Assembly (NCBI GenBank): GCA_947449535.1
Contig: CANFRP010000008.1
Span: forward strand, 1-51,674
Direction: 5' to 3'
Origin: Actinomycetota bacterium
Lineage (GTDB): Bacteria > Actinomycetota > Actinomycetes > Nanopelagicales > Nanopelagicaceae
Length of the DNA stretch: 51,674 nucleotides
How positions within the stretch are numbered: position 1 is the stretch's first letter; every line of letters begins with the position of its first letter. Below the pieces are notes generated by a model. It was not told the origin of the DNA. It made no database searches and saw nothing but the letters and a program-made list of their open reading frames with translations. Below, piece after piece: positions 33,520 through 41,850 of the stretch. The translations under genes and the position numbers were made by a program.

Positions 33520-35238
33520 ATGAAATCCTGGAGAGTTGTCGCACTTTTATCGTGCGCGCTTGTGCTTTCTGGGTTGCCTTCGCAAGCCCAAGCAGATAAT
33601 CCACCCCGCAAGATATTGACGGGTTGGTTGCCGTATTACAGCATGAAAACATCACTTCCTTCGACAATTGTAAATGCTGATCTCATCCAAGAAATTTCTC
33701 CCTTCTGGTACACCGTCAAGGATCAGAATTTGATTACCGATCTATACACTCCGGCAAATCCATCTATTCCCATTGATCAACCACTTTCAGCTCTTCGTTC
33801 ATTAAACATTGCGATTATTCCTACCATCACTGATGGAACTACCAAAGGGGTTATGGCGGGGTGGTTAGCTAAAGATGATTCTCGGCAACGGCTTGTTACC
33901 ACTATTACTAACTTTGTGGTTACCAACAACTATCAGGGAATAGATCTTGATTTTGAAAACTTCGCATTTGTCGATGGAAATGCTTCCTGGCCCACGACCC
34001 TTCCCAATTGGGTGAAATTTAATCAAGAACTTTCCACCGCTTTACATGCACAAGGGAAATTACTCTCGATCACATCACCAGTCCTCTTCAATCCGATTTC
34101 CGGAAAGAAGGGATATTTCGTTTATGGGTGGGCTCAAATCGCTCCCTATATCGATCGCCTTCGCATCATGACTTACGACTATTCCGTTGCAACGCCAGGA
34201 CCGATTGGTCCAATTACCTGGGTGGAACAATCCTTGCAATTTGCAGTGTCCGTGATTCCCGCTTCCAAAATTTATGTTGGCGTCGCTGGTTATGGACGTG
34301 ACTGGATTACCAAGGTGGATGGCACTTGTCCTGCATCGGTAGCGAGCACAGTTGTGGCGGGAGCTAAAGCGGCAACATTCGTGATGCGCAATGCATCAAC
34401 TCTTGCTAGTGATTACGGTGAAACTTCCACATACGTTGCCAAATATGGAGAGAGCACATTCACATATAAGAAGAGTTACCCAGGAACAACTAAAGCCGGA
34501 CTTGCCACTACATGTACTGCAACACGAACAGTTTGGTATCAAGATCAACAAGGATATGCACTTCGCGCAAATTTGGTATCTAAGTATCACATTGGTGGAA
34601 TTGCGGCGTGGACAATGGGAATGGAAGATCCACTTGCAACCGATGCAATTCGCACTTTTGCGAAGTCGATTGCACCTGATCCAGTTGTCGCGACTCTTAC
34701 GACTGATAAAGCGAGCGTTAAATATGGAGATGCCGTAAATATCACCGCACTATTTACGCTCAAAGATAATCGACCACTTCCTGGACTTCCTGTTCGCATT
34801 GAAGCGAAAAGTGCGAGTGCGGATTGGCACTCAATATTTACCGGAGTTTCCGGCGCTGATGGGAAGGTAAGTACTCGAGTTTTGTTGGGGAAGAACACAA
34901 CACTTCGCGCAATTTCAGATGGAAGTTGGATGGTTTTAGAAGGTAGGACTGAGGAGAAAAATATCGGTGTTTCGCCTGTGATCACTTGGAAAGCCCCCGC
35001 CTCCATGAAGCATGGTGTGAGCTATCAAATAAGTGGCGAGATTGCGCCAAAGGTAAGTGGAAAACTCATTCACCTCAACTTTGGAGGAGACCTAACTGCG
35101 ATTACCGATAGCGATGGCAAATTTGTATTTACTCTCACTGCGCGCCAAGTCGGATTTATCGCAGCGCAACTCTCGATTACTCCAGATGCCCAGTTCGGCC
35201 CCACCGCTTCTGATTTATTCACAATCTTGGTACGGTAA
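33520..35238 (+). CDS. Secreted glycoside hydrolase family 18 protein
   Basis: Protein of 572 aa with a cleavable signal peptide (about 1-26, ending QAQA). The GH18 TIM barrel spans about 30-385; the catalytic DxDxE is Asp142, Asp144, Glu146 in [11 protein letters not shown], and MTYDYS and GVAGYGRDW follow as expected. The barrel most resembles the YaaH/SpoVR-associated spore-type peptidoglycan glucosaminidases rather than chitinases, but that is inference. About 390-572 forms two Ig-like beta repeats. It may cleave chitin, peptidoglycan or another beta-1,4-HexNAc glycan outside the cell. Confidence 0.85.
35231..35236 (+). promoter_or_regulatory. Leaderless -10 of clpS
   Basis: TACGGT ends 7 bases before the ATG at 35244; it runs into the stop codon of the GH18 gene. 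Confidence 0.4.
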
Positions 35239-37659: not shown

Positions 37660-38274
37660 ATGCGCCAGATTGTTTTAGCGACCCGTAATAAAGGAAAGAT
37701 CGCCGAATTCGAAAGATTACTCGCCGAATTCGCAACCGACATTCACGTTCTGGGACTTGCTGATTTTCCTGATCTCCCCGATGTGGATGAGACCGGAAGT
37801 ACTTTTGAAGAAAATGCACTTCTTAAATCCCGCGAAGTCGCTGAATACACTGGCCTGCCAGCAATCTCTGATGACAGCGGTTTATGCATTGATTACCTCA
37901 ACGGTGACCCAGGAATTTATTCTGCGCGTTGGGCGGGTGGGCACGGAAATGATTTAGCCAATATTGAGAAAGTGTTGACTCAGCTCGATGGCGTTTTTGA
38001 GCCCGACCGAGGCGCACATTTCACATGCGTTGTTGCGCTCTCTTTTCCTGCCAACCATTCTCACTTTCCAGAGGAAGTAATTCGCATGGGCCAGCTCGAT
38101 GGTTCAATCGTTCTCACCCCTAGAGGAACAGCGGGTTTTGGGTATGACCCCATCTTCCAACCCCTGGGCTATGACCTGACTTTGGGTGAATTTGGATTCG
38201 GAGAGAAGGATCGAATTAGTCACCGCGGCAAGGCAATGCGTGAGATTGCCCCCGAAATTACTCGCTTGATCTGA
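37660..38274 (+). CDS. rdgB: dITP/XTP pyrophosphatase (RdgB/HAM1)
   Basis: House-cleaning enzyme that hydrolyses dITP, ITP and XTP. 204 aa. N-terminal VLATRNKGKIAEF, ETGSTFEENALLKS, SDDSGLCIDYLNGDPGIYSARWAG and GTAGFGYDPIF are all family signatures. It closes the murI-rph-rdgB run. Confidence 0.96.
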   Translation: MRQIVLATRNKGKIAEFERLLAEFATDIHVLGLADFPDLPDVDETGSTFEENALLKSREVAEYTGLPAISDDSGLCIDYLNGDPGIYSARWAGGHGNDLANIEKVLTQLDGVFEPDRGAHFTCVVALSFPANHSHFPEEVIRMGQLDGSIVLTPRGTAGFGYDPIFQPLGYDLTLGEFGFGEKDRISHRGKAMREIAPEITRLI

Positions 38275-38358
38275 GTTCTGGAATATGGGCTGAGGTAGGA
38301 TTGACCTATTAAGGCAATGCATAAGCGCCCATTTTAATTATTTCTAAAGGAGTTAGAC

Positions 38359-39201
38359 GTGGCAGTTAAGAAAGCAGCTAAGAAGTCAGCAGCGAAGAAG
38401 TCGACTACAAAGAAATCAACAGCAAAGAAATCAGCAGCAAAGAAATCAGCAGCAAAGAAGTCGACTGCAAAGAGAGCTGTGAAAAAGTCCGCAGCTAAGA
38501 AATCAGCTAAGAAAGCTCCTGCAAGAAAAGTTGCCAAAAAATCAGCAGTGAAGAAAGTTGCGAAGAAATCTGCAGCTAAGAAATCTGCCTCCCAAATTGT
38601 TATTCCGCCAGTTCCAGGCACTTCTGCAATTCCTGCTCGCAAAGTAGTGGGAACTCCTCCAACCACTTCACTGGCTAAGAATTTGTCATCTTCTGGCACT
38701 GCCAAGAAGAGCAACTCATCGAACCGAGTTGTGTTTGCAGTAATTGTTGGAATTGTTCTACTTGCACTAGTTGTAGTGGCTCGTAATTCATCTACTACTT
38801 CTAAGTCATCTACTGTGACTCCTGCCCCAGCAGCTTCAACATCTGCTGAAGCAACTCCGGCACAGACAGAGGCGGCACCTGCTGCAACATCATCTGCTGT
38901 ATCAGAGCCATCTGCAGGTCACGATGCCCCAACAAATATCGTTGCTCACTACACCGCATCTGGCGTCACCGTATTCTGGAACACCCCAGCAGCTGCAACA
39001 GATATCACGGGCTATAACGTGGAAATTCGCGTTAACTCTGGGGAATGGATGTTGGTCTCCACAACTCCTGCTTCTCAGCTTTCATTAGATGTTGCAAAGA
39101 GTGATTCTGCTTCCTGGACTCAGTTCCGGGTCTCAACAGTTTACAAAGATGGAACTGTTGTCGGCGGTAAAGTTTTTGGAATTCCAGGAACTTACAAGTA
39201 A
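38359..39201 (+). CDS. Membrane protein with histone-H1-like tail and FN3 domain
   Basis: Protein of 280 aa with an unusual order. Residues 1-78 are tandem KKSAAKKST-type repeats (30 Lys, 2 Arg), like the C-terminal tails of actinobacterial HU and of histone H1. Residues 79-123 form a linker, 124-141 a single membrane helix with AR after it, 142-188 a Ser/Thr/Ala/Pro-rich stretch, and 190-280 a fibronectin-III-like domain. With so many positive charges before the helix, the tail should be cytoplasmic and the FN3 domain outside. A DNA-binding tether at the membrane is a reasonable inference. GTG start with a perfect AAAGGAG 6 bases upstream; a strong terminator follows. Confidence 0.8.
   Translation: MAVKKAAKKSAAKKSTTKKSTAKKSAAKKSAAKKSTAKRAVKKSAAKKSAKKAPARKVAKKSAVKKVAKKSAAKKSASQIVIPPVPGTSAIPARKVVGTPPTTSLAKNLSSSGTAKKSNSSNRVVFAVIVGIVLLALVVVARNSSTTSKSSTVTPAPAASTSAEATPAQTEAAPAATSSAVSEPSAGHDAPTNIVAHYTASGVTVFWNTPAAATDITGYNVEIRVNSGEWMLVSTTPASQLSLDVAKSDSASWTQFRVSTVYKDGTVVGGKVFGIPGTYK
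38362..38592 (+). repeat. Imperfect tandem repeats encoding KKSA units
   Basis: Short repeats of the type AAGAAATCAGCAGC and AAGAAGTCGACTGC run through the first part of the gene and encode the lysine/alanine/serine tail. Copy number may vary between strains by slippage. Confidence 0.7.
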
Positions 39202-39213
39202 AAAGTAATTATA

Positions 39214-39249
39214 AAAACTCCTCACCGATTGTCGGTGGGGAGTTTTTTT
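39214..39249. terminator. Strong intrinsic terminator, likely bidirectional
   Basis: A 15-base stem (39214-39228 with 39232-39246, one G-U pair) has a 3-base loop, with A-run on the 5' side and T-run on the 3' side. It ends the plus-strand gene for the H1-tailed protein and overlaps the end of the convergent acyltransferase gene. Confidence 0.9.
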
Positions 39250-41002
39250 ATTGAGGAAGTATTCCGTTGAGTGCATCCACAATGGCTGCGGTGTAAACAT
39301 CGCCACCTTGTGCAACTAAGTGAACTCCATCTGGCGCAAAGAATTCAGGGTGATTGTTGGAAATCGTTGCCCAATCAACAAGAAGTACATTCGAATACGT
39401 GGGAGCTATCCGAGCCACTAACTCATTATTAGGAATTTTCCACGGCCGCGGAACCGAAGTATTGATCAAAATAACTTGAGGTTGCTCTTTGAGTAGATCA
39501 AGTAACTCAATGAGCTGACTCTCGGTAATGCGATTGTTATTGCCGACATCGATCACCACAGGTGACCCTTTGGCATCGAGCCGATCCTGTTTCACCACAG
39601 TGATGAGTTCATCAATTTGTCGCCCTACCCGCGCATTGATCAGAGCGATGGGGTACTTCTTTGCAAGTCGATCTTTGACTCCCAAGATGATGGAGTCGCC
39701 CGTGACCCACAACCCAGTCGCTAACTTTTCTGTTGGGCGCTGGATAAGTGTCATCTCTTGTCGATTTACTTTGATGAAGTGATTTGCGCGGTAGACAGCG
39801 ACACTTGTTGCAGTTGAGGTAGTGACAATCAAGAAGGCGAGAAAGGAGGCGAGATAGATTCGTTGACGCTTGCGAACTGAGCGAGCACGGTATTTCATGC
39901 CACGTAGCCAATGATTAACTTCACCAGTGCGAATCGGCACTTCAACAAATCGAAGTGAAATATCGGCCAGCGCAACCACAAGGAGAATGCGGAATATATC
40001 TAGCGCCCACGCTTCACCGGCTAAATCGATGGATGGACGAGTGAATTGAAAAATAACCCAGTGCCAGAGATAGATTCCATAGGATCTTTGTCCGATCCAT
40101 AAAAGAACTTTCTGCCCCATGATTGGCGCAAAGCGGGAAGCCGGATGAACAATTGAGGCTATTGCAGCGCAGCCAAAGAGCGCGCTCAACGGAAATGCGA
40201 TTTTATAAAGCGCTGAATTACTTTCAGAAATAAATAAGAATGAAGCGAGCAATCCAAAGAGACCAAAAATTCCAATTCCATCCACGACATCTTGTGCCCG
40301 CTCGGTAATTCGCGCACTGAGATTTTGTGGAATCCAGAATACTGCGAGCGCAGATCCCAAAAAGAGGCCGATGCTGTGCGTATCTGTTCCAAAGTAGACG
40401 TGACTGATGGAGGAAGCACTCTGTGCATCCATGCGAAGCGAGAAGAGAAATAGTGCAACGCCAGAGCCTGCCGCAATGATGAGAGCAATACGCGCAACGC
40501 TTGCTTTGCCTAAATACTTCCAAATTGCCAGAAGAATCATTGGCCAAATGAGATAGAACTGAGATTCAACTCCAAGTGACCAGGTGTGCTGAAGCAATGG
40601 GGGACGGCCCGAGGATTGAAAGTAATCCTGATGAACCGCAACCAATCGCCAGTTATTTGTACCAGTCAGAACGTAGGGAAGATCAGAGAGAAATCGCTTG
40701 ATTGCATCTGGTGCAAAAATTGAGATGAGGACGGTTGAACATGAGATCAAAAAAAGTAGCCCAGGAAGCAATCTGCGAGCTCTGGCCATGTAGAAGCCTC
40801 GAAGATTGAGGCCATTGGAGGTTTCGATATTGTCCAAAATAAGTCGTGTGATGACATAACCAGATATAACGAAGAAGAGATCGACGCCGAGGAATCCACC
40901 TGGTATCCACTTAAGACCTAAGTGGTAGAGAAGTACTGCTGCGACTGCAAGTGCGCGCAATCCATCAATTGATTGGATATGGCGCGTAGGGCGCTGCGAC
41001 AT
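39248..41002 (-). CDS. OatA-like membrane acyltransferase with SGNH domain
   Basis: Protein of 584 aa. The N-terminal acyltransferase-3 domain (about 1-350, ten or so helices) opens with IQSIDGLRALAVAAVLLYHL and FFVISGYVITRLI, and has QHTWSLGVESQFYLIWP. A further helix (about 385-405) leads to an external SGNH esterase-like domain with Ser437 (GDS), Asp558 and His561 (DGVH). Such proteins O-acetylate peptidoglycan, teichoic acid or other glycans. Its ATG overlaps the stop of the coiled-coil gene by one base (TAATG), so the two are translationally coupled. Confidence 0.92.
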   Translation of the reverse strand: MSQRPTRHIQSIDGLRALAVAAVLLYHLGLKWIPGGFLGVDLFFVISGYVITRLILDNIETSNGLNLRGFYMARARRLLPGLLFLISCSTVLISIFAPDAIKRFLSDLPYVLTGTNNWRLVAVHQDYFQSSGRPPLLQHTWSLGVESQFYLIWPMILLAIWKYLGKASVARIALIIAAGSGVALFLFSLRMDAQSASSISHVYFGTDTHSIGLFLGSALAVFWIPQNLSARITERAQDVVDGIGIFGLFGLLASFLFISESNSALYKIAFPLSALFGCAAIASIVHPASRFAPIMGQKVLLWIGQRSYGIYLWHWVIFQFTRPSIDLAGEAWALDIFRILLVVALADISLRFVEVPIRTGEVNHWLRGMKYRARSVRKRQRIYLASFLAFLIVTTSTATSVAVYRANHFIKVNRQEMTLIQRPTEKLATGLWVTGDSIILGVKDRLAKKYPIALINARVGRQIDELITVVKQDRLDAKGSPVVIDVGNNNRITESQLIELLDLLKEQPQVILINTSVPRPWKIPNNELVARIAPTYSNVLLVDWATISNNHPEFFAPDGVHLVAQGGDVYTAAIVDALNGILPQ

Positions 41003-41850
41003 TACTTTCGCTTAGTAGCAGGGCGCTTCTTTGCAGATTTTTTAGCTGCTGGCTTCTTTACTGCACGCTTTGGTGCCACGCGACGGGTAGGAACTTCAGG
41101 GACATCCTCCCCATCCACTTGTGACACTTCAGCGATATTCTCGCGAGTAAATGCCTTTGCACGAGGACGATTATCTTCGGTTAAGTTATTTTCAATAGCG
41201 TTCTGAAGATTATTGAGTTTGGAGAAAGCGCTCTGTAGTCGTTCGCGGGATTGACCAATTGCTTGCTCGGCTGCACTGAGTGATTGAGCTTGGATGCGAT
41301 AAAGACGATCTGCTTCAGAAATCGCAGTAGTCAACCAGTTACGGTAATTCGCGATGTCCCCTGTGGCTTCAACAATGATTCGCTCTGCTTCACGCTTTGC
41401 TGAGGAGAGCAGCGCACCAGCTTCGCGCTTCTTAGATTCGAGGAGCGCACCAGCATTTCGCTCTGCCTCACTGATCATTTCTGAAGCTTCAGACTCTGCA
41501 GCTTCCAGATATTTACGCCCACGTGATTCAGCGCCAGAAAGTACTGACTTAGCCTTTGCTTCAGCGCCTTCGAGAAGAGCCCTTGCTGAAGAAGTGCTCT
41601 CATCCATTGCGCGTTTTGCGGTAGCAAGTGCACGAGATTCACGTTGCTGAGCAGTTTTGATAATTGACATCGCAGTTTCAGTTGCGAGAATTTCAAACTC
41701 TTCTTTAGATAATCCGGTGATATCGCGACGTGATCGAAGCTCGGTGAGTTGAGCTTCTAATTGGCGAATGCGTTCAACCGCGTTCTCACTTGGCGCGACA
41801 GTCTCATCGCCCTTATAACCAACCCATGAGAGAAAATTCTTCTCGCTCAT
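41002..41850 (-). CDS. Coiled-coil protein with histone-H1-like C-terminal tail
   Basis: Protein of 282 aa. After a short head (FLSWVGYKGDE), residues ~20-230 are charged heptad-rich helix with repeating AESEASEMISEAERNAGALLE-type units, a long coiled coil like DivIVA/Wag31 or other polar scaffold proteins, though I see no certain DivIVA domain. Residues ~255-282 form the basic tail KRAVKKPAAKKSAKKRP. AAAGGAG lies 8 bases before the ATG, the second of only two such perfect sites seen. Coupled to the acyltransferase downstream. A scaffold linking DNA and envelope growth is an inference. Confidence 0.72.
   Translation of the reverse strand: MSEKNFLSWVGYKGDETVAPSENAVERIRQLEAQLTELRSRRDITGLSKEEFEILATETAMSIIKTAQQRESRALATAKRAMDESTSSARALLEGAEAKAKSVLSGAESRGRKYLEAAESEASEMISEAERNAGALLESKKREAGALLSSAKREAERIIVEATGDIANYRNWLTTAISEADRLYRIQAQSLSAAEQAIGQSRERLQSAFSKLNNLQNAIENNLTEDNRPRAKAFTRENIAEVSQVDGEDVPEVPTRRVAPKRAVKKPAAKKSAKKRPATKRK

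Follow-up and report, generated by a model that had tools for sequence, protein, structure and literature searches.

A gene of the actinobacterial family Nanopelagicaceae (38359..39201, + strand) encodes a protein of 280 residues in which a lysine-rich N-terminal tail, a single membrane helix and a C-terminal domain with a predicted FN3 fold follow one another; the parts of this protein and the order of the surrounding genes are conserved. The window, i.e., the whole stretch of DNA that was analysed, comprises 51,674 nucleotides. We propose, at a probability that we judge to be about even, that the product is a membrane-anchored nucleoid-binding protein, which would tether the nucleoid to the membrane in the manner of Rv3852 of Mycobacterium tuberculosis and carry an added FN3 module on the wall side; the tether function and the partner named below are offered as hypotheses. 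To our knowledge, few membrane-anchored nucleoid proteins have been described.

According to this model, the lysine tail would be disordered, lie in the cytoplasm and bind DNA by charge, without sequence preference, and the single helix would serve as the membrane anchor. An IVIPPVP-like motif would dock a cytoplasmic partner, perhaps a part of a cell-shape or division scaffold, and a flexible S/T/P linker would extend the FN3 domain to the wall side of the membrane, there to hold or sense the wall. Overall, chromosome loops would thereby be kept at the membrane, next to sites of wall construction. The coordination of the bacterial chromosome with the growth of the wall is still poorly explained; the main argument for its importance is that parts and place are kept across most of a small-genome family, together with the co-occurrence of a second lysine-tailed protein. 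An earlier note on this DNA suggested that the tail could tie the nucleoid to the cell surface, an interpretation that is partly supported as a whole.

The gene and its lysine-rich tail

Coordinates, reading frame and length agree with the earlier note, and the start codon is GTG. The Shine-Dalgarno site AAAGGAG (38346..38352, + strand) places AAGGAG 6 nt upstream of the start, as had been claimed, and a core of 5-6 bases precedes the start in 51 of 53 homologues, whose starts were themselves picked partly by this signal. The strong terminator mentioned in the note is backed by a hairpin with T-runs on both strands, situated between two convergent genes (39213..39247, + strand; -23.9 kcal/mol, z -6.8), which suits the convergent acyltransferase gene as well; against it, a simple terminator scan lists the hairpin on the - strand only. 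The description of a stand-alone gene was not borne out: the start is only 84 nt downstream of rdgB on the same strand, and a promoter scan revealed no sigma-70-type promoter on the + strand.

The tail (residues 1-78; 38359..38592, + strand) is of the H1/HU type in its composition. It contains 30 lysines, the number originally counted, together with two arginines, 23 alanines, 12 serines and no acidic residue; in the whole protein, AKK occurs 11 times and KKSA eight times. Among the 45 ORFs of the window, the runner-up stretch of 78 residues has 11 lysines and belongs to the neighbouring gene at 41002-41850. Given a lysine content of 4.1% elsewhere, the binomial probability of the observed number is approximately 1e-21. 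The tail is kept in all 53 full-length homologues, and a search for members devoid of it returned none: 20-45 lysines precede the helix, the net charge of this region is +26 to +50, and only one of the 53 has D or E within the first 60 residues.

We also compared codons in 43 pairs of homologues with 80-99% identity. In these pairs, which are related and thus non-independent and in which the alignment of repeats is uncertain, residues 2-60 of the tail have 633 synonymous versus 434 non-synonymous differences, compared to 1033 versus 402 in the ectodomain, and silent differences are found at 240 of the 967 aligned K-K positions of the tail. The relatively larger amount of amino acid change in the tail suggests that only its composition and charge are held. 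The binomial probability and the codon-level comparison led us to reject a chance or low-complexity artefact.

Membership in the known Hc2/H1-like families was rejected as well: the Pfam model HC2 (PF07382) gives 13.2 bits for a cut-off of 40, and the NCBIfam models of H1-like proteins and Hc2 (NF038053, NF038052) stay at 13.2 and 8 bits, with cut-offs of 80 and 135, respectively. The lysine/alanine-rich composition is common to the window protein, Hc2 and the Burkholderia H1-like proteins; however, the profile scores lie far below the cut-offs. A census of lysine tails in the genome of the window was incomplete, in that it missed HU (above the Pfam cut-off), which bears a similar tail and was recovered by a family search. 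By sequence reading, lysine-rich N-terminal tails similar to that of the window protein were also observed on a putative principal sigma factor (L002, contig C20) and on a DksA/TraR-like zinc-finger protein (L004, contig C1).

The earlier note took such tails to be DNA binders. This holds for the lysine repeats of HupB, HbhA and Rv3852 (PMC10665949, PMC4433263) and fails for the ribosomal protein RplV, an rRNA binder with AKKA repeats for which DNA binding was absent (PMC10665949). Since RplV has the repeats without the binding, the tail alone is no proof; by analogy with the three other proteins, DNA binding by the tail appears to be a good inference. HupB-type HU and HbhA have lysine-repeat tails like the one described here, with published DNA binding (PMC10665949); the architecture differs, HU being a soluble DNA-binding protein and HbhA containing a coiled coil, each with its tail at the C-terminus and neither with an FN3 domain.

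The same evidence bears on another reading, in which the tail would have RNA, ribosomes or RNA polymerase as its target, not DNA as such, and would retain complexes engaged in transcription or translation at the membrane in a transertion-like fashion. RplV speaks for it, and the best other matches to the tail in the same genome are on the putative principal sigma factor and the DksA/TraR-like protein. We nevertheless consider it unlikely, albeit by no means negligible, in view of the similar tail on HU in this genome and of the three lysine-repeat proteins with published DNA binding (PMC10665949).

The closest described system for the proposed nucleoid-membrane tether is Rv3852. According to two reports, this protein carries KAAK/PAAK repeats and is tethered to the membrane by a C-terminal helix while bound to DNA, and it condenses the nucleoid when the helix is removed (PMC8233713, PMC4433263); it is also reported to bind the polar scaffold Wag31 and to aid its placement, and its reported occurrence is limited to M. 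tuberculosis and its close relatives (PMC8233713). The likeness, as judged from the described features, consists of N-terminal lysine-rich repeats (PAKK/KAAK-type in Rv3852, AKK-type in the window protein) and one membrane helix. The helix of Rv3852 is C-terminal, whereas that of the window protein is internal (124-141 of 280) and is followed by FN3, a domain that is not described for Rv3852; moreover, the window gene is common throughout a different family of actinobacteria, beyond the reported range of Rv3852. In a later report, Rv3852 is said to be dispensable for nucleoid compaction. The claim that no such system is described was therefore too strong for a tail joined to a membrane helix; it stood for the combination of tail, helix and FN3, of which we found no report among the papers listed for the open-licence PMC literature.

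Membrane anchor, topology and FN3 domain

Directly after the tail, there is a conserved linear motif that the earlier note did not mention, IVIPPVP (residues 80-86; 38596..38616, + strand); a VPxVP-type pattern (IVIPPVP/FVVPAVP type) is found at this place in 48 of the 53 homologues. The single transmembrane helix (residues 124-141; 38728..38781, + strand), VVFAVIVGIVLLALVVVA, was confirmed, with AlphaFold placing a helix at 121-142. Its mean Kyte-Doolittle hydropathy is 3.02, within a range of 2.19-3.18 for the 53 homologues. It should be noted that the full-length AlphaFold model has a pLDDT of 57.6 and contributes this helix only. The helix is followed by a variable S/T/P/A-rich linker (residues 143-184; 38785..38910, + strand), which is modelled without structure (residues 144-182, pLDDT <50).

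Polybasic segments of membrane proteins can bind anionic lipids. The tail might accordingly bind the inner membrane surface, or polyphosphate, and tune nothing except the placement of the protein itself. This is very improbable in our estimation, as approximately 45 less-charged residues separate the tail from the helix, an aromatic residue occurs within the first 60 positions in only three of the 53 homologues, and the tail resembles those of H1 and HU.

In all 53 sequences, the 25 residues before the helix have a charge of +2 to +5 and the 25 residues after it a charge of -7 to +1. Judged purely by charge rules, a topology with the tail outside found no support, and the arrangement with the tail in the cytoplasm and FN3 outside, which the tether requires, is predicted with good support from charge. 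The inverted arrangement, with the lysine tail outside on anionic polymers or surfaces and FN3 inside, would have a parallel in the lysine-rich C-terminal domain of HbhA, which is reported to bind sulfated glycoconjugates as well as DNA (PMC10665949). The positive-inside asymmetry, uniform across the homologues, makes this reading improbable in the extreme. FN3 domains of bacteria are also usually extracellular.

A related question is whether the protein stays intact. If the protein were a secreted FN3 with a long basic n-region, signal peptidase would cut after the helix, FN3 would be released or wall-bound, and the tail would stay on a stub. In many homologues, the helix does end, as seen by eye, in small residues with V or I at -3 (e.g., VVVA|RN, VVVS|RN). 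The hydrophobic stretch of approximately 18-22 residues is long for a signal peptide, however, and a tail without use would hardly be retained in every one of the 53 sequences; we regard cleavage as quite improbable.

The C-terminal domain (residues 185-280; 38911..39198, + strand) is the putative ectodomain, and its FN3-like character, proposed from the sequence, is upheld by several lines of evidence. The single sequence scores 17 bits with Pfam fn3, below the cut-off of 25; at E 0.1, 14 of 24 family members match this model, the best at 1.9e-4. A profile of 24 family sequences matches FN3con in the PDB at 1e-7. An AlphaFold model of the domain, based on three sequences in the alignment, has a pLDDT of 88.3, and the best 50 Foldseek matches to it are mostly FN3 structures (query TM 0.62-0.82). 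Thus, the model and the profile matches together identify the domain as a predicted FN3 beta-sandwich. The fold is shared with bacterial extracellular FN3 modules such as that of Clostridium perfringens GH84C (PDB 2w1n; Foldseek 9.4e-05, query TM 0.77), which is accessory to a large enzyme that is secreted, whereas FN3 is the sole folded domain of the window protein.

Distribution in the family and beyond

The post-tail profile matched 172 of 201 Nanopelagicaceae genomes, drawn evenly from a larger group, at E 1e-15 or better. The gene is present in 12 of the 17 genera of the family and in 92 of the 99 genomes of good quality (completeness of 90% or more, contamination of no more than 5%); most genomes of the family are 1.2-1.5 Mb in size. 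With residues 79-280 as the query, 32 of 37 family genomes, including that of the window, gave a strong match. The order of tail, helix and FN3, which the note had proposed to look for in related genomes, is common there: a basic tail, one strong helix and an FN3-like region are retained in 53 of 53 full-length sequences. These were obtained from 55 loci by leaving out L032 (contig end) and L021 (5' part N); two further homologues (L035 and L036) come from GTDB records of uncultivated Actinomycetota MAGs. The tail counts omit the homologues of G010, G030 and others from the profile survey, and the duplicates L037, L038 and L040 are uncounted. This broad presence, together with an unchanged arrangement of parts and identical neighbours at every locus read, suggests that a tether of this kind may be more widespread among Actinomycetota.

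Absence from 29 of the 201 genomes indicates that the gene is dispensable in some lineages. The misses are clustered: the 20 that are listed include all listed genomes of the genera g6 (four), g10 (five) and g123 (four). Of the five genomes without a strong match among the 37, three are uninformative, since rdgB was itself unmatched in G005 and G023 and is at a contig end in G028; in G031 and G035, rdgB is followed by other genes, and these absences are real.

We also applied the profile to a draw of 296 genomes from the class, in which 188 genomes gave no match and 28 family members are among the matches listed. Outside the family, 61 genomes matched at E 0.001 or better, and none of the extra-family matches listed spans the whole profile. 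The best of them (3.5e-9) is to the FN3 domain of a protease-like protein (L063). A wider spread in the class was rejected on reading such matches, L063 being a trypsin-like protease with FN3 and L065 a protein beside kinase genes. A further 20 weaker matches, chosen by ORF size, have no lysine-rich tail: the stretch of at most 100 residues that leads up to the helix contains 0-5 lysines. At least seven of these 20 have an arginine-rich basic stretch before the helix, with a net charge of +10 to +22, some of it perhaps preceding the true start, which speaks against uniqueness. No protein of the same architecture was found among the extra-family matches read, and the combination of tail, helix and FN3 looks confined to one family within this sample. 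L113-L116, L118 and L127 of other families share a recurrent arginine-rich N-terminus (RERELARxxxER type), followed by a membrane helix and an S/T/P linker; they may be membrane-anchored cyclophilins.

Gene neighbourhood and a candidate partner

Upstream of the gene, on the same strand, is rdgB (37660..38274, + strand), a Ham1-type pyrophosphatase gene named by sequence reading; it has this position in 54 of 55 homologous loci, the remaining locus being cut by a contig end. Convergent with the gene is that of an AT3-type membrane acyltransferase (39248..41002, - strand; Pfam Acyl_transf_3, 2.9e-26), present in 55 of 55 loci; our impression is that its C-terminus is SGNH-like. The gene beyond it (41002..41850, - strand) codes for a coiled-coil protein that ends in a lysine-rich tail and that we consider the candidate partner in view of the conserved tail and of co-occurrence. 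The last 30 residues have a charge of +7 to +15 in 32 of 32 homologues. Towards the N-terminus, the sequences around LRSRRDIT and EEFEIL show strong conservation. A VPxVP motif common to the two proteins was considered and dropped, as it was seen by eye in only seven of 32 C-termini of the neighbour.

Among the 37 family genomes, the coiled-coil gene has the same distribution as a strong match to the FN3 gene: 32 genomes have it, and the five without it are those that gave no such match. A second set of 23 genomes was picked by hand, 16 of them listed without the FN3 gene and seven with it; the coiled-coil gene is absent from 14 of the former and present in all seven of the latter. The discordant cases are G345, which has the coiled-coil gene, and G344, which matches its first 97 residues in a frame of 110 codons. 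Over 58 distinct family genomes, there are thus 39 with both genes, 17 with neither and two discordant ones (56 of 58 concordant), some of the absences being assembly gaps. Adjoining genes can also go in one deletion, and the joint absence is therefore weaker than it appears. The listed genomes of g6, g10 and g123, all of which have no FN3 gene, also nearly all have no coiled-coil neighbour. The lysine-tailed FN3 protein and its co-occurring lysine-tailed neighbour make up a testable pair.

In an extended form of the model, one small protein would join nucleoid, membrane and wall across the envelope, and the lysine-tailed coiled-coil protein would be a scaffold that replaces DivIVA; we consider this doubtful, if somewhat less so than the reading based on RNA or polymerase. 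Membership of the neighbour in the DivIVA/Wag31 family itself was rejected, with 8.5 of 28 bits in Pfam and 18.9 of 260 bits (E 0.0011) in NCBIfam, in which V-ATPase subunit E (1.3e-4) and FliH (2e-4) rank ahead of DivIVA/Wag31. Judging from these scores, the protein is hardly DivIVA-like, and what likeness there is is that of a generic coiled coil. The best Pfam DivIVA match in the genome of the window is this same neighbour (E 0.125). With the Wag31 model, eight of eight family genomes contained nothing better than E 3e-4, a match to a homologue of the neighbour, and two genomes of other families gave 1e-20 and 3e-28; none of the 10 genomes reached the cut-off. The polar or division scaffold of Nanopelagicaceae may be a different protein. 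Elsewhere in the window (33520-35238, + strand), there is a gene for a secreted-looking protein of glycoside hydrolase family 18 (Pfam 2.7e-23).
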